Virus record (IMG/VR): IMGVR_UViG_3300045120_000347 | Location: 1 to 36,232 of that record | Source of the DNA: a virus | Length of the DNA stretch: 36,232 bases | Strand: one strand, 5' to 3' | Shown here: positions 695 to 36,232 of the stretch, one piece after another | Position numbering within the stretch: position 1 is the first letter of the stretch | Layout: each line of letters opens with the position of its first letter | Program-made: the position numbers and the translations under genes | The notes under the pieces: generated by a model | What the model saw: the letters and a program-made list of their open reading frames with translations, nothing else | Told to the model about the DNA's origin: nothing | The model's database searches: none

Positions 695-2839
695 TCACCA
701 AGTAACGCCGGCCACCCATGCCACGGTTCCGGTGCGGCGGATTCCCCATGTCATTGGCATGATCATCCGCAGGGCCAGCATGTCGGTTTGGAACATCGAT
801 TTCACCGGAGCCGCAACGACGTTCGGCGAGCCGGCCGTGCTGATGTCGAGCGGAGTCGTGTCGTCGAAATGTAGGGTCGCCTGATCGCTGATCTCAAACC
901 GCGGCCCGTCGCCGGTGACGCTGACGAAGTCGGCGGCATCGATGACGATGACCGTCCCCGCCGGCACCGTGCCCGATTGGATGATCGGCCAGCCGCCGAG
1001 GCGGCCCTGGCTGATCTCGTCGCGGAACGGGAACACGCCCGCGCCGGTGGCGATAGCAAAGCCCGCACTGTTGACCTGTTGCGGGTTCATCAGCCAGGTC
1101 GGCTTGCGTACGTTTCCGAGCGTGCCGGTCAGCAACGCGCCCGACAATTGCTTGATGTCGCCGGTGAGCGCGGCAAAGCCGCCGCCGGCGGTCGGAGTCA
1201 GGCCGGACACGCCGTTGAGGATGCCGGCGGGCCGGATCGTCGTCGCCGCGTTGGCGTCGAGCAGGACGGAGTCGATCGCAACCGAGGTGTCATAGACGAT
1301 GGCATCACGCAACAACCCCTCGATCGCCGGGATCGAATGCTCGTCGAGTTCCCGCGTCCAGGTCGTGATGACTGCCATTTTCATGGGCGTCAGTGGGAGC
1401 GACGTGAACGCGCCCTGCCGAACGGGAATCGGCAACCCTTCCCCGACGAACGACCCGGCGATGGTCGGCGTCCTTGACCGTGTCGGGATGATGATTTTGG
1501 CGTTGCGGCCAAACCCGAGTGCCAGGCCCATGCCCGACAGCGGTCCGAAAATTGAAGCCGCCTTCAGGATTTCCATGAACTCGACGACGGTCTGTTGCGC
1601 CAGTTCCTTCGCCCACCCGGTGACCGTGGTCATGGCCGCGGCCGAGGCCGCCCTGGTCTGCCAATCGACCACCGCCGCGAGCGGCTCGTCGTTGCCATAG
1701 AGGGCGCGGGTGAGGTCCATCACCGGCTTGCGCTCGTGATGTGCCAGCAGGCGCAAGGCCGCCGAGCGGCAAAGCAGATCGAGCGGATCGAGCTTTTTGC
1801 GTTCGACACCGAACGGCCTCGACAGTTGCGGCGCGCTATAGCTGCCGTTGCCTTGTTTGATCACCGCAGGCATTCGGCCGCCATCGTCACTGTTCACGGC
1901 GAGATTGCGCTCGCTGTCGCGCAACGTCGCCAGGATTTCCCGCTCGTGCGCGATCTCGGCGTTTGCCTTTTTCACTGTCTCGAGCAAGTCGTTCGGATAG
2001 TCACCGTCGCCGACAGCGTCGTGCAGCGCATCGAGCTTGCCGGTTTTGTCGAGGATCGAGGTTTCCCTCTCTTTGATCTTTTGAGCGAGCGACATGGTCG
2101 CGCCCTTTCCAATTATTCGCGATGGCGTGTCGGCTTGCCCGCCGGTGAACCCGCGTCGTCTGATCCCGCGTTCCTTGCCTTTCCCGGCGAAAACGAGATC
2201 GATGGTCACGGGTGAAATCTTGAGCGACTTGGCGATGGCCAGCGCATTCGGGTTGGCTGGCACCGAGACCAGGCTGGTCTCGACCAATTCGGCCTTCGTA
2301 AAGAACATGCCGTAATCGGATTCCGGCCGCGGCTTGGATTCCTTCGGGCGGAAACCGACGCTGACGGCGCGCAGAATGCCGGCCTCGATCAGCTTGCGGA
2401 TCTCGTCGATGCGATCGCTGGTGCCGGCCGGCGCGAGCTCGAGGTGGCCGCGCAACTGCTTGTCGACGACGCGGACGTTCGTCCACTTGCCGATCGGCGC
2501 GTTGCTGTTGTGGTTGAACAGCGCGATCGGATTTTTTGTGAACGACGCCAGATCCCAAGCATCCGCCATGATCACGTCGTCCATGCGGTCGGGCGTCTCG
2601 TCCGAGAGCACGAACTCCTGGCCGTTGACCTTGGCGGCGTGCGTCTTATAGACGACGCCCTTGGCTGATGCCTGGTGGCCGCCGCCATAGGAATCTTTGT
2701 CCCAGGCGTCGTCCCAAATCAGTTGGCAGACGTCCTGGTCGCCGATCTCATCGCCGCAGCGACTCATGAAATCGATGTAGGACTCGTCGAGCGCGGGATA
2801 GAGGTCCGCCTGACGCTGGCGCTTGGGCTGCATTGGCAT
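695..2839 (-). CDS. Fusion of HK97 prohead protease (peptidase S78) and major capsid protein
   Basis: One uninterrupted 714-codon frame. Residues about 55-210 match the prohead protease: catalytic His in FNHN (His110), catalytic Ser in AVSVGFRP (Ser160), then the family's ELVETSLVSVPANPNA segment (about 184-199). From Met249 the sequence starts again like a capsid protein. It has a coiled delta-domain-like region (about 249-340), then the HK97 fold with WLMNPQQV, FPFRDEI, GRLGGWPII and a C-terminal beta stretch ending GVTW. The protease matures the prohead by removing the delta domain; the capsid part forms the shell. Protease-capsid fusions are known in some HK97-type phages. Both ATGs (2839 and 2833) are plausible starts. 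The gene precedes the portal, the reverse of HK97. Confidence 0.93.
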   Translation of the reverse strand: MPMQPKRQRQADLYPALDESYIDFMSRCGDEIGDQDVCQLIWDDAWDKDSYGGGHQASAKGVVYKTHAAKVNGQEFVLSDETPDRMDDVIMADAWDLASFTKNPIALFNHNSNAPIGKWTNVRVVDKQLRGHLELAPAGTSDRIDEIRKLIEAGILRAVSVGFRPKESKPRPESDYGMFFTKAELVETSLVSVPANPNALAIAKSLKISPVTIDLVFAGKGKERGIRRRGFTGGQADTPSRIIGKGATMSLAQKIKERETSILDKTGKLDALHDAVGDGDYPNDLLETVKKANAEIAHEREILATLRDSERNLAVNSDDGGRMPAVIKQGNGSYSAPQLSRPFGVERKKLDPLDLLCRSAALRLLAHHERKPVMDLTRALYGNDEPLAAVVDWQTRAASAAAMTTVTGWAKELAQQTVVEFMEILKAASIFGPLSGMGLALGFGRNAKIIIPTRSRTPTIAGSFVGEGLPIPVRQGAFTSLPLTPMKMAVITTWTRELDEHSIPAIEGLLRDAIVYDTSVAIDSVLLDANAATTIRPAGILNGVSGLTPTAGGGFAALTGDIKQLSGALLTGTLGNVRKPTWLMNPQQVNSAGFAIATGAGVFPFRDEISQGRLGGWPIIQSGTVPAGTVIVIDAADFVSVTGDGPRFEISDQATLHFDDTTPLDISTAGSPNVVAAPVKSMFQTDMLALRMIMPMTWGIRRTGTVAWVAGVTW
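2093..2110 (-). promoter_or_regulatory. Internal ribosome-binding site and start for capsid-only product
   Basis: On the - strand a GGAAAGG (2110-2104) lies 8 nt before an in-frame ATG (2095-2093). That ATG is codon 249, exactly at the protease/capsid boundary. The product would start MSLAQKIKERETSILDK, a typical delta-domain N-terminus, and be 466 residues long. Internal initiation would give free capsid protein in excess over protease-capsid fusion. This is inference from the sequence. Confidence 0.55.
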
Positions 2840-2854
2840 GACTGTTGACCTTTT

Positions 2855-2947
2855 TCAGAACGTGAACATCAGCGCGACGAACACGATCGCGAGCGCCGCC
2901 GTGAGCGCGATGAGCCACACGGCCTTCACCACGTCGCGGTCGGTCAT
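2855..2947 (-). CDS. 30-residue single-pass membrane peptide
   Basis: Tiny frame beginning MTDRDVVKAVWLIALT and running into a continuous hydrophobic helix to the end (FVALMFTF). It has one predicted membrane span and a short charged N-terminus. It ends 15 bp before the start of the protease-capsid gene. No strong Shine-Dalgarno is visible. The same style of 30-34-residue membrane peptide recurs at 22019-22117 and 18230-18334, which slightly raises confidence that such frames are real. Function unknown. Confidence 0.4.
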   Translation of the reverse strand: MTDRDVVKAVWLIALTAALAIVFVALMFTF

Positions 2948-3059
2948 TTGCTTGCTTGACTTGCCTTTACTGTATTGTCCAAATAATAGCGCGCGAATAC
3001 TATTGACTGCTTGGGTAAATACTATATTTTACTTTCATCAGAACAGAGGACATAGACAA
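2948..3059. promoter_or_regulatory. AT-rich intergenic island with a + strand promoter
   Basis: This 112-bp stretch is clearly richer in A/T than its surroundings. On the + strand TTGACT (3003-3008) is followed after 16 nt by TATTTT (3025-3030), with AT-rich flanks. The + strand gene starts at 3060 behind a GAGG ribosome-binding site. No convincing - strand promoter was seen. Confidence 0.5.
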
Positions 3060-3230
3060 ATGACCAAGACCTTCGCCAATACCTGCAGCCACCGAGACCT
3101 GATCGACCTCGCCGTCGAATACGCGATGATCCGCTCGACGGTTCACTTCAACGACCTCAATGCGAAGCAGCGGGCCGCAGTGATCCGCCAGATCAGCAAG
3201 ATCGCCGAGCAGCTCCCTCCCCTCGCCTGA
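3060..3230 (+). CDS. Moron-like 56-residue hypothetical protein
   Basis: Small soluble protein (MTKTFANTCSHRDLIDLA...) with two amphipathic helical stretches and no membrane span. It lies on the opposite strand to all neighbouring head genes, has its own promoter-like sequence upstream, a GAGG ribosome-binding site, and a strong hairpin over its stop codon. This self-contained layout inside a late operon is the classic moron pattern, meaning genes often expressed from the prophage. No recognisable family. A role in lysogenic conversion or superinfection exclusion is speculation. Confidence 0.65.
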   Translation: MTKTFANTCSHRDLIDLAVEYAMIRSTVHFNDLNAKQRAAVIRQISKIAEQLPPLA

Positions 3231-3236
3231 GGGGAG
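3217..3236. terminator. Hairpin between convergent genes (8-bp perfect stem)
   Basis: CTCCCCTC (3217-3224) and GAGGGGAG (3229-3236) form a perfect GC-rich 8-bp stem with loop GCCT. It covers the TGA stop (3228-3230) of the + strand gene and lies just past the stop of the - strand gene at 3242. There is no T-tract on either side, so it may be a weak intrinsic terminator or a bidirectional block. Confidence 0.55.
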
Positions 3237-3241
3237 CCGGT

Positions 3242-3586
3242 TTACTGCGCGGCCTCGACCGCGATCGCGAACTTGCAATCAACCTTCTGGGCAATCGGAT
3301 GAGTGCGAGAGCCCGACCGAAACTTGATGAAGTTGATCGACTTTGTCCAAGCCTCGCCCACCACGATGCCGGTGCTTCCTCTGGCCACAACGGTGATCTC
3401 GGCGCCGCTTGCAGTAAATAGGTCGTTGTAGAAGTTGCCGTCTGTGCTCACCTGGAACGTCAAATTAGCCGGCGTGAATTCCTGCGGCACCGTGATGCGG
3501 ACAATGGTGCCCGCAGAGCAATCGACCCCATCGGAGAGCGACTCGCCTGCAGCAATGGTTGGTCCGTCAACAATGCTCAAGGTCAT
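3242..3586 (-). CDS. Beta-rich virion-associated protein, paralog of the next gene's N-terminus
   Basis: A 114-residue protein of alternating hydrophobic/polar beta pattern. Segments VPQEFTPANLTFQVSTDG and FIKFRSGSRTHPIAQ align with MPAEWTPATVTVLGSADG and ALKLRSGTHDIPVVQ in the N-terminal about 110 residues of the adjacent gene (3601-4491). The two are therefore duplicates. No enzyme motif. Its position between terminase and capsid, with a lectin-like partner, suggests a capsid decoration or surface component. It ends 6 bp from the convergent hairpin. Confidence 0.7.
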   Translation of the reverse strand: MTLSIVDGPTIAAGESLSDGVDCSAGTIVRITVPQEFTPANLTFQVSTDGNFYNDLFTASGAEITVVARGSTGIVVGEAWTKSINFIKFRSGSRTHPIAQKVDCKFAIAVEAAQ

Positions 3587-14537: not shown

Positions 14538-14719
14538 TCGTCGATGCCCAGCCTATGACCGAGCGTGAGATCGAGGTCCAGGTCGAGCGGATGCTGACGC
14601 ATCTCAACCGACTGCTGCTCAACGGCGACATGAGCGCGGAGGACAACCACGCAGCACTGCGCGACCTGGCCGAGTGGGAAGAAGCGGCCATGCTGAAGGC
14701 CAAGGGCGAGGCCGAGTGA
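14534..14719 (+). CDS. Hypothetical 61-residue helical protein
   Basis: MIVDAQPMTEREIEVQVERM, then LLLNGDMSAEDNHAALRDLA and EWEEAAMLKAKGEAE: an acidic, all-helical small protein. Coupled at both ends (ATGA with the winged-helix gene, TGATG with the exonuclease gene). Adjacent to the recombination pair, it could be a nuclease inhibitor or accessory factor, but no family is recognised. Confidence 0.65.
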   Translation: MIVDAQPMTEREIEVQVERMLTHLNRLLLNGDMSAEDNHAALRDLAEWEEAAMLKAKGEAE

Positions 14720-15501
14720 TGTTGAGCCCCAGCCAGATCGAGGCGCGCAAGGGCAAGCTGACGGGATCGCGCGTGGCCGCCTTGATGACCGGCGATGCCG
14801 AGAAGATTCTGCGGCTGTATCGCGAAATGATCGGTGAGGCGCCGGAAGTCGACCTCTCCGACGTTTGGCCAGTGCGGCTCGGCGAGGCCACCGAGCAGCT
14901 CAATCTCGATTGGTACGAGATGCGGCGCAATCCGCTGTCGCGGCGCGGCGAGGTCGTCATACACCCGCACTACGATTGGGCGGCGTGTACGCTCGACGCC
15001 TGGGACGACACGTTGTGCTGCCCGGTCGAAGCCAAGCACGTCGGCGGGCGCGAGCCGCTCGAAACCGTCATCGACCGTTACGCCGCACAACTGCAATGGG
15101 AGATGGAAGTCACCACCGCCGACCAATGCGCCATCTCGATCATCGTGGCGGCCGCCCCGCCAGTGGTCGAGTATGTCCCGCGCGATCCCGACTATGCCGC
15201 CGAGATGATTCATCGCGGCGCGCAATTCATGGAATGCGTGGCGCGGCGGATCATGCCAGTGCATCTCGCCCCCGTCGCCGCGCCAGTCGTCGTTTCGAAG
15301 ACCTACGACATGTCCGGCGACAATCGATGGGCAGCGGCGGCAGCCGCTTGGCTCACGACCAAGGTCGCCGCGCGCGATCACGCCGAGGCCGAAGCAGATT
15401 TGAAAGCGATCATGCCAGACGATGCGCGACGATGCGTTGGCTACGGCGTCGTCATAAATCGCGACCGCGCCGGCCGGTTATCGTTACGGGAAATGAAATG
15501 A
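14719..15501 (+). CDS. YqaJ-family (lambda-exonuclease-like) viral recombinase
   Basis: 260 residues from ATG 14719-14721 (TGATG overlap). Layout matches the YqaJ/lambda-Exo PD-(D/E)XK fold: GKLTGSRVAALMTGD (about 12-26), GEATEQLNLDWYEM with metal-site Glu, the segment ending AACTLDAW (Asp), PVEAKHVGG (Glu-x-Lys), then YAAQLQWEMEVT (Gln-rich helix). It would resect dsDNA 5' ends to give 3' single strands for the annealing protein encoded just downstream. Transcription is probably from the OL-type promoter. A pentamer repeat array begins at its stop codon. Confidence 0.9.
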   Translation: MLSPSQIEARKGKLTGSRVAALMTGDAEKILRLYREMIGEAPEVDLSDVWPVRLGEATEQLNLDWYEMRRNPLSRRGEVVIHPHYDWAACTLDAWDDTLCCPVEAKHVGGREPLETVIDRYAAQLQWEMEVTTADQCAISIIVAAAPPVVEYVPRDPDYAAEMIHRGAQFMECVARRIMPVHLAPVAAPVVVSKTYDMSGDNRWAAAAAAWLTTKVAARDHAEAEADLKAIMPDDARRCVGYGVVINRDRAGRLSLREMK

Positions 15502-15611
15502 AGCAATGCAAAGCAAGATATGGCGTGGTCCGGCCCGGCGAGGCGCGGCAAGGTAAGGCTGGGCACGGCGGGGCTAGGCGGGGCGTGGCACGGGCCCGGC
15601 TTGGCGAGGCG
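15501..15611 (+). repeat. Degenerate NGGCN pentanucleotide tandem array (about 22 units)
   Basis: From the exonuclease stop codon the sequence falls into 5-base units of consensus NGGCN: AAGCA ATGCA AAGCA, then TGGCG, TGGTC, CGGCC, CGGCG, AGGCG and so on. The GG dinucleotide recurs every 5 bases without slip from 15522 to 15592 (15 units). After one inserted base the phase resumes at 15598, 15603 and 15608. The variable outer bases show this is not a simple microsatellite expansion. It fills most of the gap between exonuclease and annealing-protein genes. Confidence 0.85.
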
Positions 15612-15617
15612 CCTAAT

Positions 15618-15643
15618 GGGCAGGGGTGGAAACACTCCTGCCC
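15618..15643 (+). promoter_or_regulatory. GAAA-tetraloop RNA hairpin upstream of the annealing-protein gene
   Basis: GGGCAGGGGTG (15618-15628), loop GAAA (15629-15632), CACTCCTGCCC (15633-15643): an 11-bp stem with one G-U wobble, closed by a GNRA tetraloop. No T-tract follows, so it is not a standard terminator. It ends 22 nt before the ATG at 15666 and about 10 nt before the GAGGAAA ribosome-binding site. It may stabilise the mRNA 5' of the downstream gene or be a protein-binding site. Confidence 0.65.
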
Positions 15644-15665
15644 AACAAACCACGAGGAAATTGAC

Positions 15666-16415
15666 ATGAACATCCCAGTCCAAAGCGACATCATGGAGTC
15701 GGTTATCGTCAAGGGCGATTTGTCGAAACTCACGCCGGATGAACGAGTCAGATATTATAATGAAACATGCCGCAGTCTCGGCCTTAACCCGCTCACGCGC
15801 CCATTTGACTACGTGAATCTCGGCGGCAAGACGGTGCTTTATGCGCGGCGCGATTGCGCCGACCAGTTGCGCAAGATAAACAATGTCTCGGTTGAAATAA
15901 TCTCGCAAAAAGTCGCCGGCGATATCCTCACGGTGCACGCCCGCGCCAAGCTGCCCGATGGCCGCACCGACGAGGATTTCGGCTCGGTCTACTACCCCGA
16001 GACGCTCAAGGGCGAGGCCCGCGCCAACGCGGAGATGAAGGCCGTAACTAAAAGCAAGAGGCGCGTCACGCTGTCAATCTGCGGGCTCGGCTGGCTCGAC
16101 GAGCTTGAAGTTGCCGACATCCCGGTGATGGCGCACCGCCGCCCACCACCGCCGGCGCCGAACGCGATGCTGCAGCACGATCCCGAGACTGGAGAAGTAC
16201 CGCCACCCGCGCCGAACAACGCGATGGCGGAACAGGCCGCCTCGCCCGACACCGAAACCGACGCGGGCGGGGCGGCTCTGTCGTTCGAGGACATGGCGCG
16301 CGAGGCCGCCATGCGCGGCGAGGCCGTGTTCAAGACTTTCTACAAGAGCCGCAACGCCAAGGAACGCGAAAAGCTCAACGCGATGGGCGACGAATTGCGA
16401 GGGCTGATGACGTGA
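15666..16415 (+). CDS. Single-strand annealing recombination protein (RecT/Erf-type candidate)
   Basis: 249 residues behind a good GAGGAAA site. The N-terminal domain includes CRSLGLNPLTRPFDYVNLGG, TVLYARRDCADQLRK, YYPETLKGEARANAEMKAVT and KSKRRVTLSICGLGWLDE. The 'KSKRRVTLSICGLG' helix resembles the TKAxKRxxLxxxG signature of Rad52/Erf-like annealing proteins. A Pro-rich linker (about 150-190) and an acidic helical tail follow, often used to recruit SSB. It sits directly downstream of the exonuclease, the usual Exo-plus-annealase pair. The exact superfamily (RecT or Erf/Rad52) cannot be settled by eye. Confidence 0.65.
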   Translation: MNIPVQSDIMESVIVKGDLSKLTPDERVRYYNETCRSLGLNPLTRPFDYVNLGGKTVLYARRDCADQLRKINNVSVEIISQKVAGDILTVHARAKLPDGRTDEDFGSVYYPETLKGEARANAEMKAVTKSKRRVTLSICGLGWLDELEVADIPVMAHRRPPPPAPNAMLQHDPETGEVPPPAPNNAMAEQAASPDTETDAGGAALSFEDMAREAAMRGEAVFKTFYKSRNAKEREKLNAMGDELRGLMT

Positions 16416-16455: not shown

Positions 16456-17217
16456 ATGAGAAAACTACTCGCTACCACCGCCCTGGTACTCGCCATGGCG
16501 GCCCCTGCGCAGGCCGATGTCATCCTCGGCGGCCAGAACTGGACTTTCTCCGGCGCCGACAATCTGACATTCCAATCAGTGGTTCCAGGCGGCAACCAGC
16601 CGCAGAACATCCAGTGCATCATCTGCGGCGAGAACCAGCCGCAGCAGCAAGCGAACTTCGGTTACACCGACTTTAAGAACAGCGGAAGCCTCACCGGCAT
16701 CAACATGTTCTCGACCAACGTGTCAGGCGGCGCCAACCCCGGCGACAATGTCATCGGGCTTGGCTACGACGGCGCGTTCCTGCGGGCCTATTTGGTTGCC
16801 AAGGGCGATACCAACTTGCAGTTTTCCGTTGGCATCGACATCAATGACAGCAATCAAACCCAGACGCTGAACTCGTTCTTCATGTTGAACTTGACGCAGC
16901 ACACGGTGTTGGCGGCATTCCGCCCCGCAGGCGGGCAATTGGTGCCGGACGTCAACAACGGCACGGGCTTCCCCGACTACACATTGAGTGGATTCAACAT
17001 CAACATCGGTACTGATATTCAGGCTGGCGACCAGATCATCTTCTTCGCCCGCATGAGCAACATGAACGACGGCCCGGACTCGTTCTTTATCGAGCCGATC
17101 GTGACGGCTGTCCCCGGCCCGGTGGTCGGTGCCGGCTTCCCCGGAATCGTCGCGGGCTGCATCGGCCTCTGGGGTCTCGCCATGAAGCGGCGGCGCCGTC
17201 AGGGGTTGATAGCCTAA
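16456..17217 (+). CDS. Secreted surface protein with PEP-CTERM-like sorting signal
   Basis: 253 residues. ATG 16456 has an AGAAGGA site 11 nt upstream; the TTG at 16447 is less likely. N-terminal signal peptide MRKLLATTALVLAMAAPAQA. Middle (about 25-215): beta-rich, including QCIICGENQPQQQANFGYTD and FFARMSNMNDGPDSFF. C-terminus: VPGPVVGAGFPGIVAGCIG, a hydrophobic helix, then KRRRRQG, the tripartite PEP-CTERM layout (motif, membrane helix, Arg cluster) in the variant common in Bradyrhizobium. Such proteins are exported and processed by exosortase at the envelope. In a phage this looks like a lysogenic-conversion gene. Hairpins follow. Confidence 0.8.
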   Translation: MRKLLATTALVLAMAAPAQADVILGGQNWTFSGADNLTFQSVVPGGNQPQNIQCIICGENQPQQQANFGYTDFKNSGSLTGINMFSTNVSGGANPGDNVIGLGYDGAFLRAYLVAKGDTNLQFSVGIDINDSNQTQTLNSFFMLNLTQHTVLAAFRPAGGQLVPDVNNGTGFPDYTLSGFNINIGTDIQAGDQIIFFARMSNMNDGPDSFFIEPIVTAVPGPVVGAGFPGIVAGCIGLWGLAMKRRRRQGLIA

Positions 17218-18831: not shown

Positions 18832-19054
18832 GGCGGAATCTGGTCCTGTGACGGTAAAAGCACCAGCAAGCCAAATGAGCATCCGGCGGTCGATCGCCGC
18901 CGCTCGCAAGGAAGGGCTGCATGTGCTGGCCATCCGGCCGGACGGCACGGTGGTGGTCGGCAAGCAGCCGATCGAAACCACGGACGTGATCCCGACCGCG
19001 CCGCCACAGACCGAGGACGAGGCCGAGCGCGAATTCTGGGAGAAGGTAAAATGA
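18770..19054 (+). CDS. Small basic protein preceding integrase (possible excisionase/DNA-binding)
   Basis: 94 residues from ATG 18770, with GGTGGAG upstream. Core: SIRRSIAAARKEGLHVLAIR and PDGTVVVGKQPIE, a pattern seen in small proteins encoded just before integrases in rhizobial prophages. Its stop overlaps the integrase ATG (ATGA), so the two are co-translated. An excisionase-like (Xis) or accessory DNA-bending role is inferred only from position; no HTH is obvious. Confidence 0.6.
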   Translation: MVNEEMRSPRPGFPVPAKSSKAESGPVTVKAPASQMSIRRSIAAARKEGLHVLAIRPDGTVVVGKQPIETTDVIPTAPPQTEDEAEREFWEKVK

Positions 19055-20127
19055 AGGTGCGGCTGAAATATCTTTCCATCGAACGTACCCGGCACGGCAA
19101 AGAAGTCGCCTACGTCATCGCCGGGGTAGGCAAGCGCCGCCGGATTCGTATTCGCGAGCCGTTCGGCGCCCCCGGCTTCATGCAGACCTACGAGGCCGCC
19201 GTCGCCGAGCTCGGGCAGCCGCTGGGCAAGTCCACCGAGATCCGCAAGGGCGCGCTGCGCTGGCTCGCGGGCCAGTATTTTGTCTCGCCCGTCTTCCGCA
19301 ATCTCGACATCAAGTCGCAGGGCGTGCGGATGTCGACGATCGAGAGTTGCCTGCGCGAGGTTGCCGTCGCCGGTAGCTCGCGGCTCATGGCCGAGTGCCC
19401 GTTGACGCTGTTCGGCCCGAACCAGGTCAGGCTGCTGCGCGATCGCCGAGCGGCGCAGCCGGGTGCCGCCAACAATCGAATGAAATATCTATCCGCCATG
19501 TTCGGATGGGGTCTCGAAAATCTGCCGGACGCGGTCGCCTCGAACCCGGTGCGCGATGTCCAAAAGCTGAAATACGAGTCGCACGGCTTCCGGCCGTGGA
19601 CCGAGACCGACCTTGTAAAATTCGAAGACGCCTATCCGATCGGAACCAAACAACGGCTGGCATTGGGATTGTTGCTATTCACCGGCGCGCGGCGATCCGA
19701 CGTCGTCGGCCTCGGCCCGGCCTGCGTGCGCGACGGCATGATCCGGTTCGTACCGCGCAAGACCAAACGCATTCGCAATCAAGCCACCCCGAAGCCGTTC
19801 CTGCCCGAGCTTGCCCGCATCGTTGCGGCGACCAAGCTGCAGGGCCGCGACACGTTCCTGGTGACCGACTACGGCAAGCCGTTCAGCGTGGCCGGGTTCG
19901 GTAGTTGGTTCGCCGACCAATGCCGCCGGATCGGCCTCGACGACTGTACCGCCCACGGCCTGCGCAAGCTCGGCGCCATGCGGGCGGCGATGGCCGGGGC
20001 CAGCCACTACCAGCTCATGGCGGTCTACGACTGGTCGACCCCAGCGCAGGCGCAGAAGTACATCGAGCTTGCCGAGCGCGGCCGTGGCGCCGCGGCGGCG
20101 ATGCCGTTCCTGGCGCAGCGGGGGTGA
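19051..20127 (+). CDS. int: Tyrosine-family site-specific integrase
   Basis: 358 residues. N-terminal arm/core-binding region (1 to about 170) and C-terminal catalytic domain. Catalytic residues visible: Arg214 in LLLFTGARRSDVVGL, Lys about 237-239 in RKTKR, His302/Arg305 in TAHGLRKLGAM, Trp328 in the usual His/Trp position, and Tyr337 in AQKYIELAERG. It would recombine attP with a host attB to form the prophage. It is co-translated with the small upstream protein and lies in the operon reading away from the OL-type promoter. Confidence 0.95.
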   Translation: MKVRLKYLSIERTRHGKEVAYVIAGVGKRRRIRIREPFGAPGFMQTYEAAVAELGQPLGKSTEIRKGALRWLAGQYFVSPVFRNLDIKSQGVRMSTIESCLREVAVAGSSRLMAECPLTLFGPNQVRLLRDRRAAQPGAANNRMKYLSAMFGWGLENLPDAVASNPVRDVQKLKYESHGFRPWTETDLVKFEDAYPIGTKQRLALGLLLFTGARRSDVVGLGPACVRDGMIRFVPRKTKRIRNQATPKPFLPELARIVAATKLQGRDTFLVTDYGKPFSVAGFGSWFADQCRRIGLDDCTAHGLRKLGAMRAAMAGASHYQLMAVYDWSTPAQAQKYIELAERGRGAAAAMPFLAQRG

Positions 20128-34910: not shown

Positions 34911-36232
34911 TTATATTACCATTCGATCTGCGCGGGATCGAATGATATCGCTCTCCTGTCGCATAAATTCTCGTCTCATTGCGGGCGAGAACTGAATTAC
35001 CTTCTGCGAAGTATCTTGCTGGTCGACTACGGGCGACGCTGGCGCTGCTGGTGATGCAGGCGACGCGGGCGCCGAAGGGATAGCGGACGCAGCTTCTAGT
35101 GGTACTACCTGGGCCTGTACGCGAGGGGAGTCGCCGAACGGAACGGCCTCGTAGCCCTCGAGCGCACGCGCTTCGTTCGGGGCGAAGATGCCGCCTTGCA
35201 CGCCGCGCGCCAGGCTCTCGATGCGGTCCTTCATCGCCGAGCGCAGCAGCGCGGCGGTGTCGAATTCCACATACTCGTCGGGCTGGCCTTTGAGATCGAA
35301 CAGCAGGCCGAACGCTTCCTCGATGTGATTGAGCGCAAATCCCAGTCCGCTCGCGACCCAGCTCTGCATCAGCAATTCGGTCGAGCTGTACGCGGTGCCG
35401 CCGATGCCGAGGATCTGCAGTGGGATGCGGAACGCCAGCGCAATCTGCTCGTTCGACAATTTTTTCATGTCGACGGTGGAGGAATCCTTGCCGCTCTGCC
35501 CCCAGGGCTGGACTTTCAGTCCGGCGGTGAGGATCGGTGTGCCGCCCTGGTGCAGGCCCTTGGTCTGGTCGTTCCAGCGGTCGCGCAACTGCTGGACTTC
35601 TTCCTGCTTGAGCTTCAGGTCGGTCGAGAGCACCGCCGACGGCCGCGCCTCGTTGAGGTAGTACCCCGTCTGCTGGCGCGCGATCGCTTCGTTGATGCCG
35701 ATGTCGCTTTGGGCCGCGACGAGCGGGCTCTCGCCGATCAGCGGCACCGGCCAGCGATGCCGCACCGTATGCAGCCGGATGTGCAGGACGTCGCGTTGAG
35801 GTACGATCAGCGGCTCGGCGCCGAGCCGTTTCTCGATCACCTGGTTGCCGTGCAACTGATAGAAAATGTCGCCGTTGGCGGCGAGCCGTGGATGCGACTG
35901 CAGCGGATCCATCAGGTGCAGTTCGTCGATCTCGAAGCGGTCGTTGCGCAACCCGAGCGCATAGGCGTTGCCCTCGAGGTAGAGCGAGCGGGTCGCGTTC
36001 AGCAGAAAGTCCGAGATCGACTGATAGTCGTTGGGATGGCGCAGCAGACGCGAGAGCGCCGAGGTCTTGACGCGCTCGCGCCCGTCTTTGTCGTTGAGCC
36101 GCCAATGGTCGCCGGGACACATGGCGACGGTCTGCGCATAGGCCGAGACACAGGCCTCCACCATGGCCGACTGGGCGCCGAGGCTGACCGGCGTATAGCC
36201 CTGCTGCCACCAGTTGTCGGCGACACCGGCGG
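34911..36232 (-). CDS. Phage portal protein, HK97 type, main part (continues at position 1)
   Basis: The frame enters from the right edge and runs to TAA at 34911-34913; with positions 1-236 it makes 476 residues. Recognisable portal features: LSRLLRHPNDYQSISDFLLN, YLEGNAYALGLRNDRFEIDE, VLHIRLHTVRHRWPVPLIGE, RPSAVLSTDLKLKQEEVQQL, then FRIPLQILGIGGTAYSSTEL, the usual wing/stem/clip pattern. The C-terminus has an Ala/Pro/Ser-rich low-complexity stretch (SAPASPASPAAPASP) and a basic end. The last 127 bases duplicate the first 127. The next gene (HNH) is separated by a hairpin. Confidence 0.93.
   Translation of the reverse strand, partial: AGVADNWWQQGYTPVSLGAQSAMVEACVSAYAQTVAMCPGDHWRLNDKDGRERVKTSALSRLLRHPNDYQSISDFLLNATRSLYLEGNAYALGLRNDRFEIDELHLMDPLQSHPRLAANGDIFYQLHGNQVIEKRLGAEPLIVPQRDVLHIRLHTVRHRWPVPLIGESPLVAAQSDIGINEAIARQQTGYYLNEARPSAVLSTDLKLKQEEVQQLRDRWNDQTKGLHQGGTPILTAGLKVQPWGQSGKDSSTVDMKKLSNEQIALAFRIPLQILGIGGTAYSSTELLMQSWVASGLGFALNHIEEAFGLLFDLKGQPDEYVEFDTAALLRSAMKDRIESLARGVQGGIFAPNEARALEGYEAVPFGDSPRVQAQVVPLEAASAIPSAPASPASPAAPASPVVDQQDTSQKVIQFSPAMRREFMRQESDIIRSRADRMVI
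36106..36232. repeat. Terminal direct repeat, right copy (circularity signature)
   Basis: Identical to bases 1-127 and inside the same portal gene. Merging the copies restores one uninterrupted portal frame, which supports a circular molecule. Confidence 0.95.

Follow-up and report, generated by a model that had tools for sequence, protein, structure and literature searches.

VIPR (Viral Interference Programmable Repeat) is a phage RNA-guided DNA-recognition system described in a 2026 bioRxiv preprint (PMC13142463). Its protein, Vipr, binds vrRNAs, which consist of GGY/NN repeats and a structured tail; in reading double-stranded DNA, the NN bases skip one base, usually the codon wobble base, and competing phages are thereby silenced (PMC13142463). 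This 1-nt-skip code is backed by experiments, and diversity among Vipr proteins is high (PMC13142463). Satellites with vrRNA genes of their own are mentioned as well; the main text is silent on whether vipr is absent from them (PMC13142463).

Here, we analyzed the viral record IMGVR_UViG_3300045120_000347 over its full length of 36,232 nucleotides (the window), in which a pentamer array lies between an exonuclease gene (exo) and an annealing-protein gene (recT). We consider it highly probable that this array is a solitary vrRNA gene of a temperate phage without a vipr gene of its own: a guide against the exo of rival phages, which would use Vipr supplied in trans for repression and is linked to a resistant exo allele.

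Pentamer arrays in viral contigs

IMG/VR contains many degenerate NNGGY arrays. A scan with eight GGCNN units as the criterion returned at least 120 viral contigs, so the suggestion in the first-pass annotation of this DNA that the array type recurs in many phages was correct. Among the contigs listed, arrays are up to about 140 units long, their outer bases vary, and they typically start 4 to 20 nt past a stop codon, on the strand of the gene that ends there. A literature search for pentanucleotide repeats with exonuclease, or for GGC pentamers, found nothing.

The family that recurs beside the arrays is phrog_4652. It was found near the array in 85 of the 120 loci listed, compared to 1 of 25 comparison loci, and the sole positive comparison locus (L142) is itself array-bearing. 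Among the genes flanking arrays in the 120 contigs listed, phrog_4652 accounted for 36 of 106 upstream and 21 of 84 downstream, RecT was found once in 84, and exonuclease matches were scattered only. Thus, the general tie to exonuclease and annealase genes that had been suggested for such arrays was not supported, and no other exonuclease-annealase junction examined carried an array.

phrog_4652 is a RAMP gene whose function is not annotated in PHROGs. Its profile hit a solved structure, "SUSP1 Vipr protein" (E 4e-42), and its AlphaFold model (pLDDT 90) resembles Csm3/Cas7 RAMPs. The idea that it is the mobility protein of a mobile element was dropped on the match to SUSP1 Vipr. Another family, phrog_15946, is of unknown function and made up 16 of the 106 genes upstream of the arrays listed (for example, L116 1580-2227 on the minus strand and L053 11295-11795 on the plus strand). 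It is a candidate vipr-accessory protein and had no match in the window.

The array and its insertion site

The strongest lag-5 signal in the whole 36-kb window is the array at 15501-15611. Its lag-5 identity is 0.62, compared to 0.32 ± 0.04 in dinucleotide shuffles (maximum 0.47 of 2000), so the autocorrelation check against shuffled controls that had been proposed came out positive. The first-pass annotation described about 22 five-base units of the form NGGCN beginning at the exonuclease stop. The period of 5 is real; however, the fully regular part comprises 15 units, not 22, and YNNGG is the better register. These 15 unbroken, perfect YNNGG (that is, NNGGY) units lie at 15519-15593 on the plus strand, with 12 C and 3 T at the Y position and no purines. 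When the window was shuffled 200 times with a first-order Markov model, no YNNGG run exceeded 4 units. We read the run as the vrRNA guide, with the NN series AT GT CC CC GA GC AA AA TG AC GG TA GG GT AC, which contains 12 different dinucleotides. The start at the exonuclease stop held only in trace form: the 5′ leader at 15502-15518 (plus strand; AGCAATGCAAAGCAAGA) shows a weak CAANN periodicity and stands outside the strict run, which starts at 15519.

At its 3′ end, the array has a phase break of one extra base, followed by the units CCCGG CTTGG CGAGG (15594-15609, plus strand); the match of the guide to its target (see below) stops at the break and does not include these units. Beyond these, RNAfold predicted a 12-bp GAAA-capped hairpin at 15617-15644 (plus strand), a candidate vrRNA 3′ tail. 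The hairpin is strong, but a search of viral contigs found no related tail and no other array with the same one. Phase breaks (a 4- or 6-base unit, e.g., GGCAGGC) are often seen at array 3′ ends right before the tail, as in L106, L103, L099, L092, and the window at 15594. Strong, sometimes terminator-like hairpins also follow several arrays, with or without Vipr (L033, L115, L092, L060, L106, and L063).

The flanking genes are those named in the first-pass annotation. Upstream, at 14719-15501 (plus strand), is a YqaJ/RecE-like exonuclease gene (PF09588, E 2.5e-10; phrog_434, E 4e-32). Downstream, at 15666-16415 (plus strand), is the gene of a 249-aa RecT-type annealing protein, which has homologues but zero Pfam or PHROG matches; its name comes from the first-pass annotation and from context. 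Next to recT, the window (16456-17217) and the relative L122 (3968-4612) both encode secreted proteins with a hydrophobic stretch and a basic tail at the end, PEP-CTERM-like by eye. Such proteins are unusual cargo for this place, and a Pfam search with the one from the window was negative.

In most relatives with the same exonuclease, the exo stop overlaps or adjoins the next gene (recT in several), and the junction is array-free. This holds for L122, whose RecT is the most similar (94% identical). Therefore, the window gained about 150 bp between exo and recT, an insert that includes the hairpin. The former junction, empty in relatives, is kept on both sides of the insert as an imperfect direct repeat of about 18 bp, which was identified by alignment: the left copy lies at 15486-15502 and the right copy, with the ribosome-binding site and start codon of recT, at 15652-15670 (both plus strand). 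We also considered a coding repeat, as no stop codon separates the array frame from recT; in relatives that lack the array, however, recT starts at the homologous ATG, and this candidate was rejected.

The decoded guide and its target

Read as NNx codons, the NN series gives [IM]VPP[DE]A[NK][NK][CW]TGYGVT, and IVPPDAKKCTGYGV occurs close to the C terminus of the exonuclease in sister phages. Among the collected loci, the best matches of the guide with one base skipped were to the part of the YqaJ exonuclease gene that encodes its C-terminal end, in L124 (29/30 nt), L125 (29/30), and L123 (28/30). In these sister phages, the target lies in codon phase 0 of exo, and the skipped base is the codon wobble base. 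At skips of 0, 2, and 3, the guide matched at most 21/30, the array itself excepted, and shuffled guides reached no more than 23/30, compared to 29/30 for the real guide. An exact 11-unit core had 3 matches in 2.9 million viral contigs, namely, the exo genes of L123, L124, and L125. The exact decoded target was absent from the bacterial genome collection, and no relative of exo was found in bacterial genomes. The three phages share 7 to 15 kb with the window at about 82 to 84% nucleotide identity, which makes them plausible competitors.

The carrier's own exo scored differently. Its equivalent segment (15409-15452, plus strand) has amino acid changes and matches only 19 of the 30 guide bases, the lowest score of 13 homologues and below that of relatives whose exo is more distant outside this segment. 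Such a low score is as expected if the carrier must escape its own guide.

The variable bases thus form a specific message, rival exonuclease sequence, and the earlier view that the degeneracy reflects selection and not slippage stands. The first-pass annotation had also suggested a recombination hot spot or a protein-binding array for module exchange. The array does lie between two recombination genes, and the imperfect direct repeats flank the insert. However, arrays elsewhere follow Vipr genes and not recombination genes, those of sister phages adjoin other genes, and the NN series carries a specific message. We find this explanation scarcely credible: a recombination role is unneeded, and none is indicated. 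Of the roles that had been proposed, that of an RNA element best explains the array, given its vrRNA anatomy and the specific NN message.

An RNA could still serve a different end. Solitary CRISPR repeats act as anti-CRISPR RNAs, and by the same logic the array RNA could be a decoy that occupies the Vipr of competitors or of the host and protects the phage. A phage that has a guide-like RNA but no effector fits this idea, and the same RNA could sequester Vipr as well as redirect it. However, a decoy needs no particular NN bases, yet the guide matches three rival exo genes almost perfectly and mismatches the carrier's own. We therefore regard a decoy as highly improbable.

A carrier without detectable Vipr and its relation to known systems

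The window carries genes for terminase, head, tail, and tape-measure proteins and for a tyrosine-type integrase (19051-20127), from which we conclude that the carrier is a temperate tailed phage. The record is classed as linear, but its ends (1-127 and 36106-36232) form an exact direct repeat of 127 bp, and relatives also show end overlap. The window is therefore a complete genome, circular and 36,105 bp long. No Vipr was detectable in it with phrog_4652 or with an 81-member Vipr profile at maximum sensitivity (hmmsearch --max); the best score to the latter was a short, unrelated-looking match with an E value of 0.16. A complete VIPR locus contains a vipr gene (a RAMP protein), and because none was detected in the window, we did not file its array as a complete VIPR system. 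The sequence points instead to a solitary vrRNA whose Vipr is probably borrowed, being supplied in trans.

The window is not alone in this. Vipr was likewise not found in the related array-bearing phages L122 and L138, whose arrays lie elsewhere in the genome, next to other genes and with no neighboring gene in common. Among 30 further array-bearing records without a nearby Vipr, 27 had no Vipr elsewhere in the record either, although many of the 30 are fragments and a few of the repeats may be simple or coding sequence. One such Vipr-less record, G045, looks complete, with a 114-bp terminal repeat.

These observations bear on two further explanations. In one, the VIPR system of the window is self-sufficient, but its Vipr has diverged beyond recognition. 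Vipr proteins are indeed highly diverse (PMC13142463), and several window genes have no family assignment, but the search described above was made at maximum sensitivity, and the arrays of L122 and L138 share no neighboring gene. We judge a hidden Vipr to be very unlikely. In the other, a full VIPR locus was formerly present in the lineage, and after the loss of vipr an array remained that is functionless today. The complete genome without Vipr agrees with this, as does L142, an exo relative with a full Vipr locus and several arrays behind exo-RecT. However, the GGY motif is intact in each of the 15 units, and sister phages that exist today are still matched at 29/30. The empty junctions of relatives indicate that the array was gained at this place, and L122 and L138, also Vipr-less, carry their arrays elsewhere. 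A relic is therefore unlikely.

The reading that we prefer remains a working guide that borrows Vipr. We infer its transcription, the supply of Vipr in trans, repression, and the rationale of linkage, and for expression, Vipr binding, and repression we draw on the preprint (PMC13142463). The array is on the strand of exo and recT and would probably be cotranscribed with them. Vipr from another prophage, a coinfecting phage, or the host would assemble on the vrRNA, whose 15 NN dinucleotides would base-pair with the rivals' exo at its 3′ end, one wobble base being skipped after each dinucleotide. The complex could then block elongation towards recT and so stop transcription of the exo-recT operon, while the carrier's own exo, changed in the target segment, would escape. 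The position of the array directly behind the resistant exo suggests that guide and resistance are coinherited, and in mosaic phage genomes the two would then pass on jointly.

We asked whether other solitary arrays resemble this one. The 18-unit array of L138 decodes to the end of a 92-aa gene directly upstream. Its guide scored 26/36 against the L139 homologue and 19/36 against the copy in L138, whereas shuffles reached up to 25 for a guide with a different first dinucleotide. We take this to be the same arrangement as in the window, a case for which the homologous position counts as much as the score. In L092, a Mu gp46-like baseplate gene lies beside a convergent array, with a partial self-match of 19/24. 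The target search with the L122 array among the collected loci gave nothing above shuffled guides, and the exact decoded patterns of the solitary arrays of L092, L138, and L033 had zero matches. As a group, solitary arrays show a weak excess of matches to neighboring genes. We hypothesize a linkage rule, by which a guide lies beside the gene whose rival alleles it targets. Beyond this, solitary vrRNAs in complete Vipr-less phages may form a class, each at the end of a gene with targeted rival alleles, with guide and resistant allele acting as a linked, toxin/antidote-like selfish cassette that borrows Vipr in trans; for this broader proposal we see the case as evenly balanced.

Starting from raw sequence, the analysis of the window provides an independent natural check of the noncontiguous 1-nt-skip code in phages other than the published models. 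It also indicates that vrRNAs are able to travel in the absence of Vipr, and this implies that phages share the effector or steal it from one another. The linkage to a resistant allele suggests why guides settle beside particular genes, and the rival and own exo alleles, which differ at guide positions, are a ready testable pair.

Compared with the vrRNAs of phage SUSP1 and the Pseudomonas fulva prophage (PMC13142463), the window has the same tandem GGY/NN (YNNGG) pentamers in a number within the range of about 9 to 16, a hairpin 3′ of the array, and a noncontiguous match to a competing phage with a 1-nt skip at the codon wobble base. It differs from them (PMC13142463) in the absence of vipr from a complete genome, in its single array, in the position of that array immediately downstream of a gene that is targeted in its rival alleles, and in a tail unlike the others found here. 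The L142 locus (IMG/VR contig 3300020020_000579, 1124-4300) is likewise a phage region with exo and RecT, followed there by VIPR: its Vipr gene lies at 2836-3435, and its arrays are long, several in number, and share a tail that ends in AATTCATTTGTTGATTTGCGG. The window, by contrast, is without Vipr and has a single array with a different tail. No named phages with an L142-type Vipr were found. Class 1 CRISPR-Cas effectors share with VIPR the RNA-guided recognition with periodic unpaired bases (PMC13142463). The modeled fold of the Vipr family also resembles Csm3, but VIPR has no CRISPR repeats, spacers, or cas genes, and its code is noncontiguous. Solitary CRISPR repeats and mini-arrays in phages are like the window in being effector-less arrays that exploit another's protein. 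They differ in that their spacers are contiguous, in contrast to the noncontiguous code of the window, and in their unrelated repeat chemistry.
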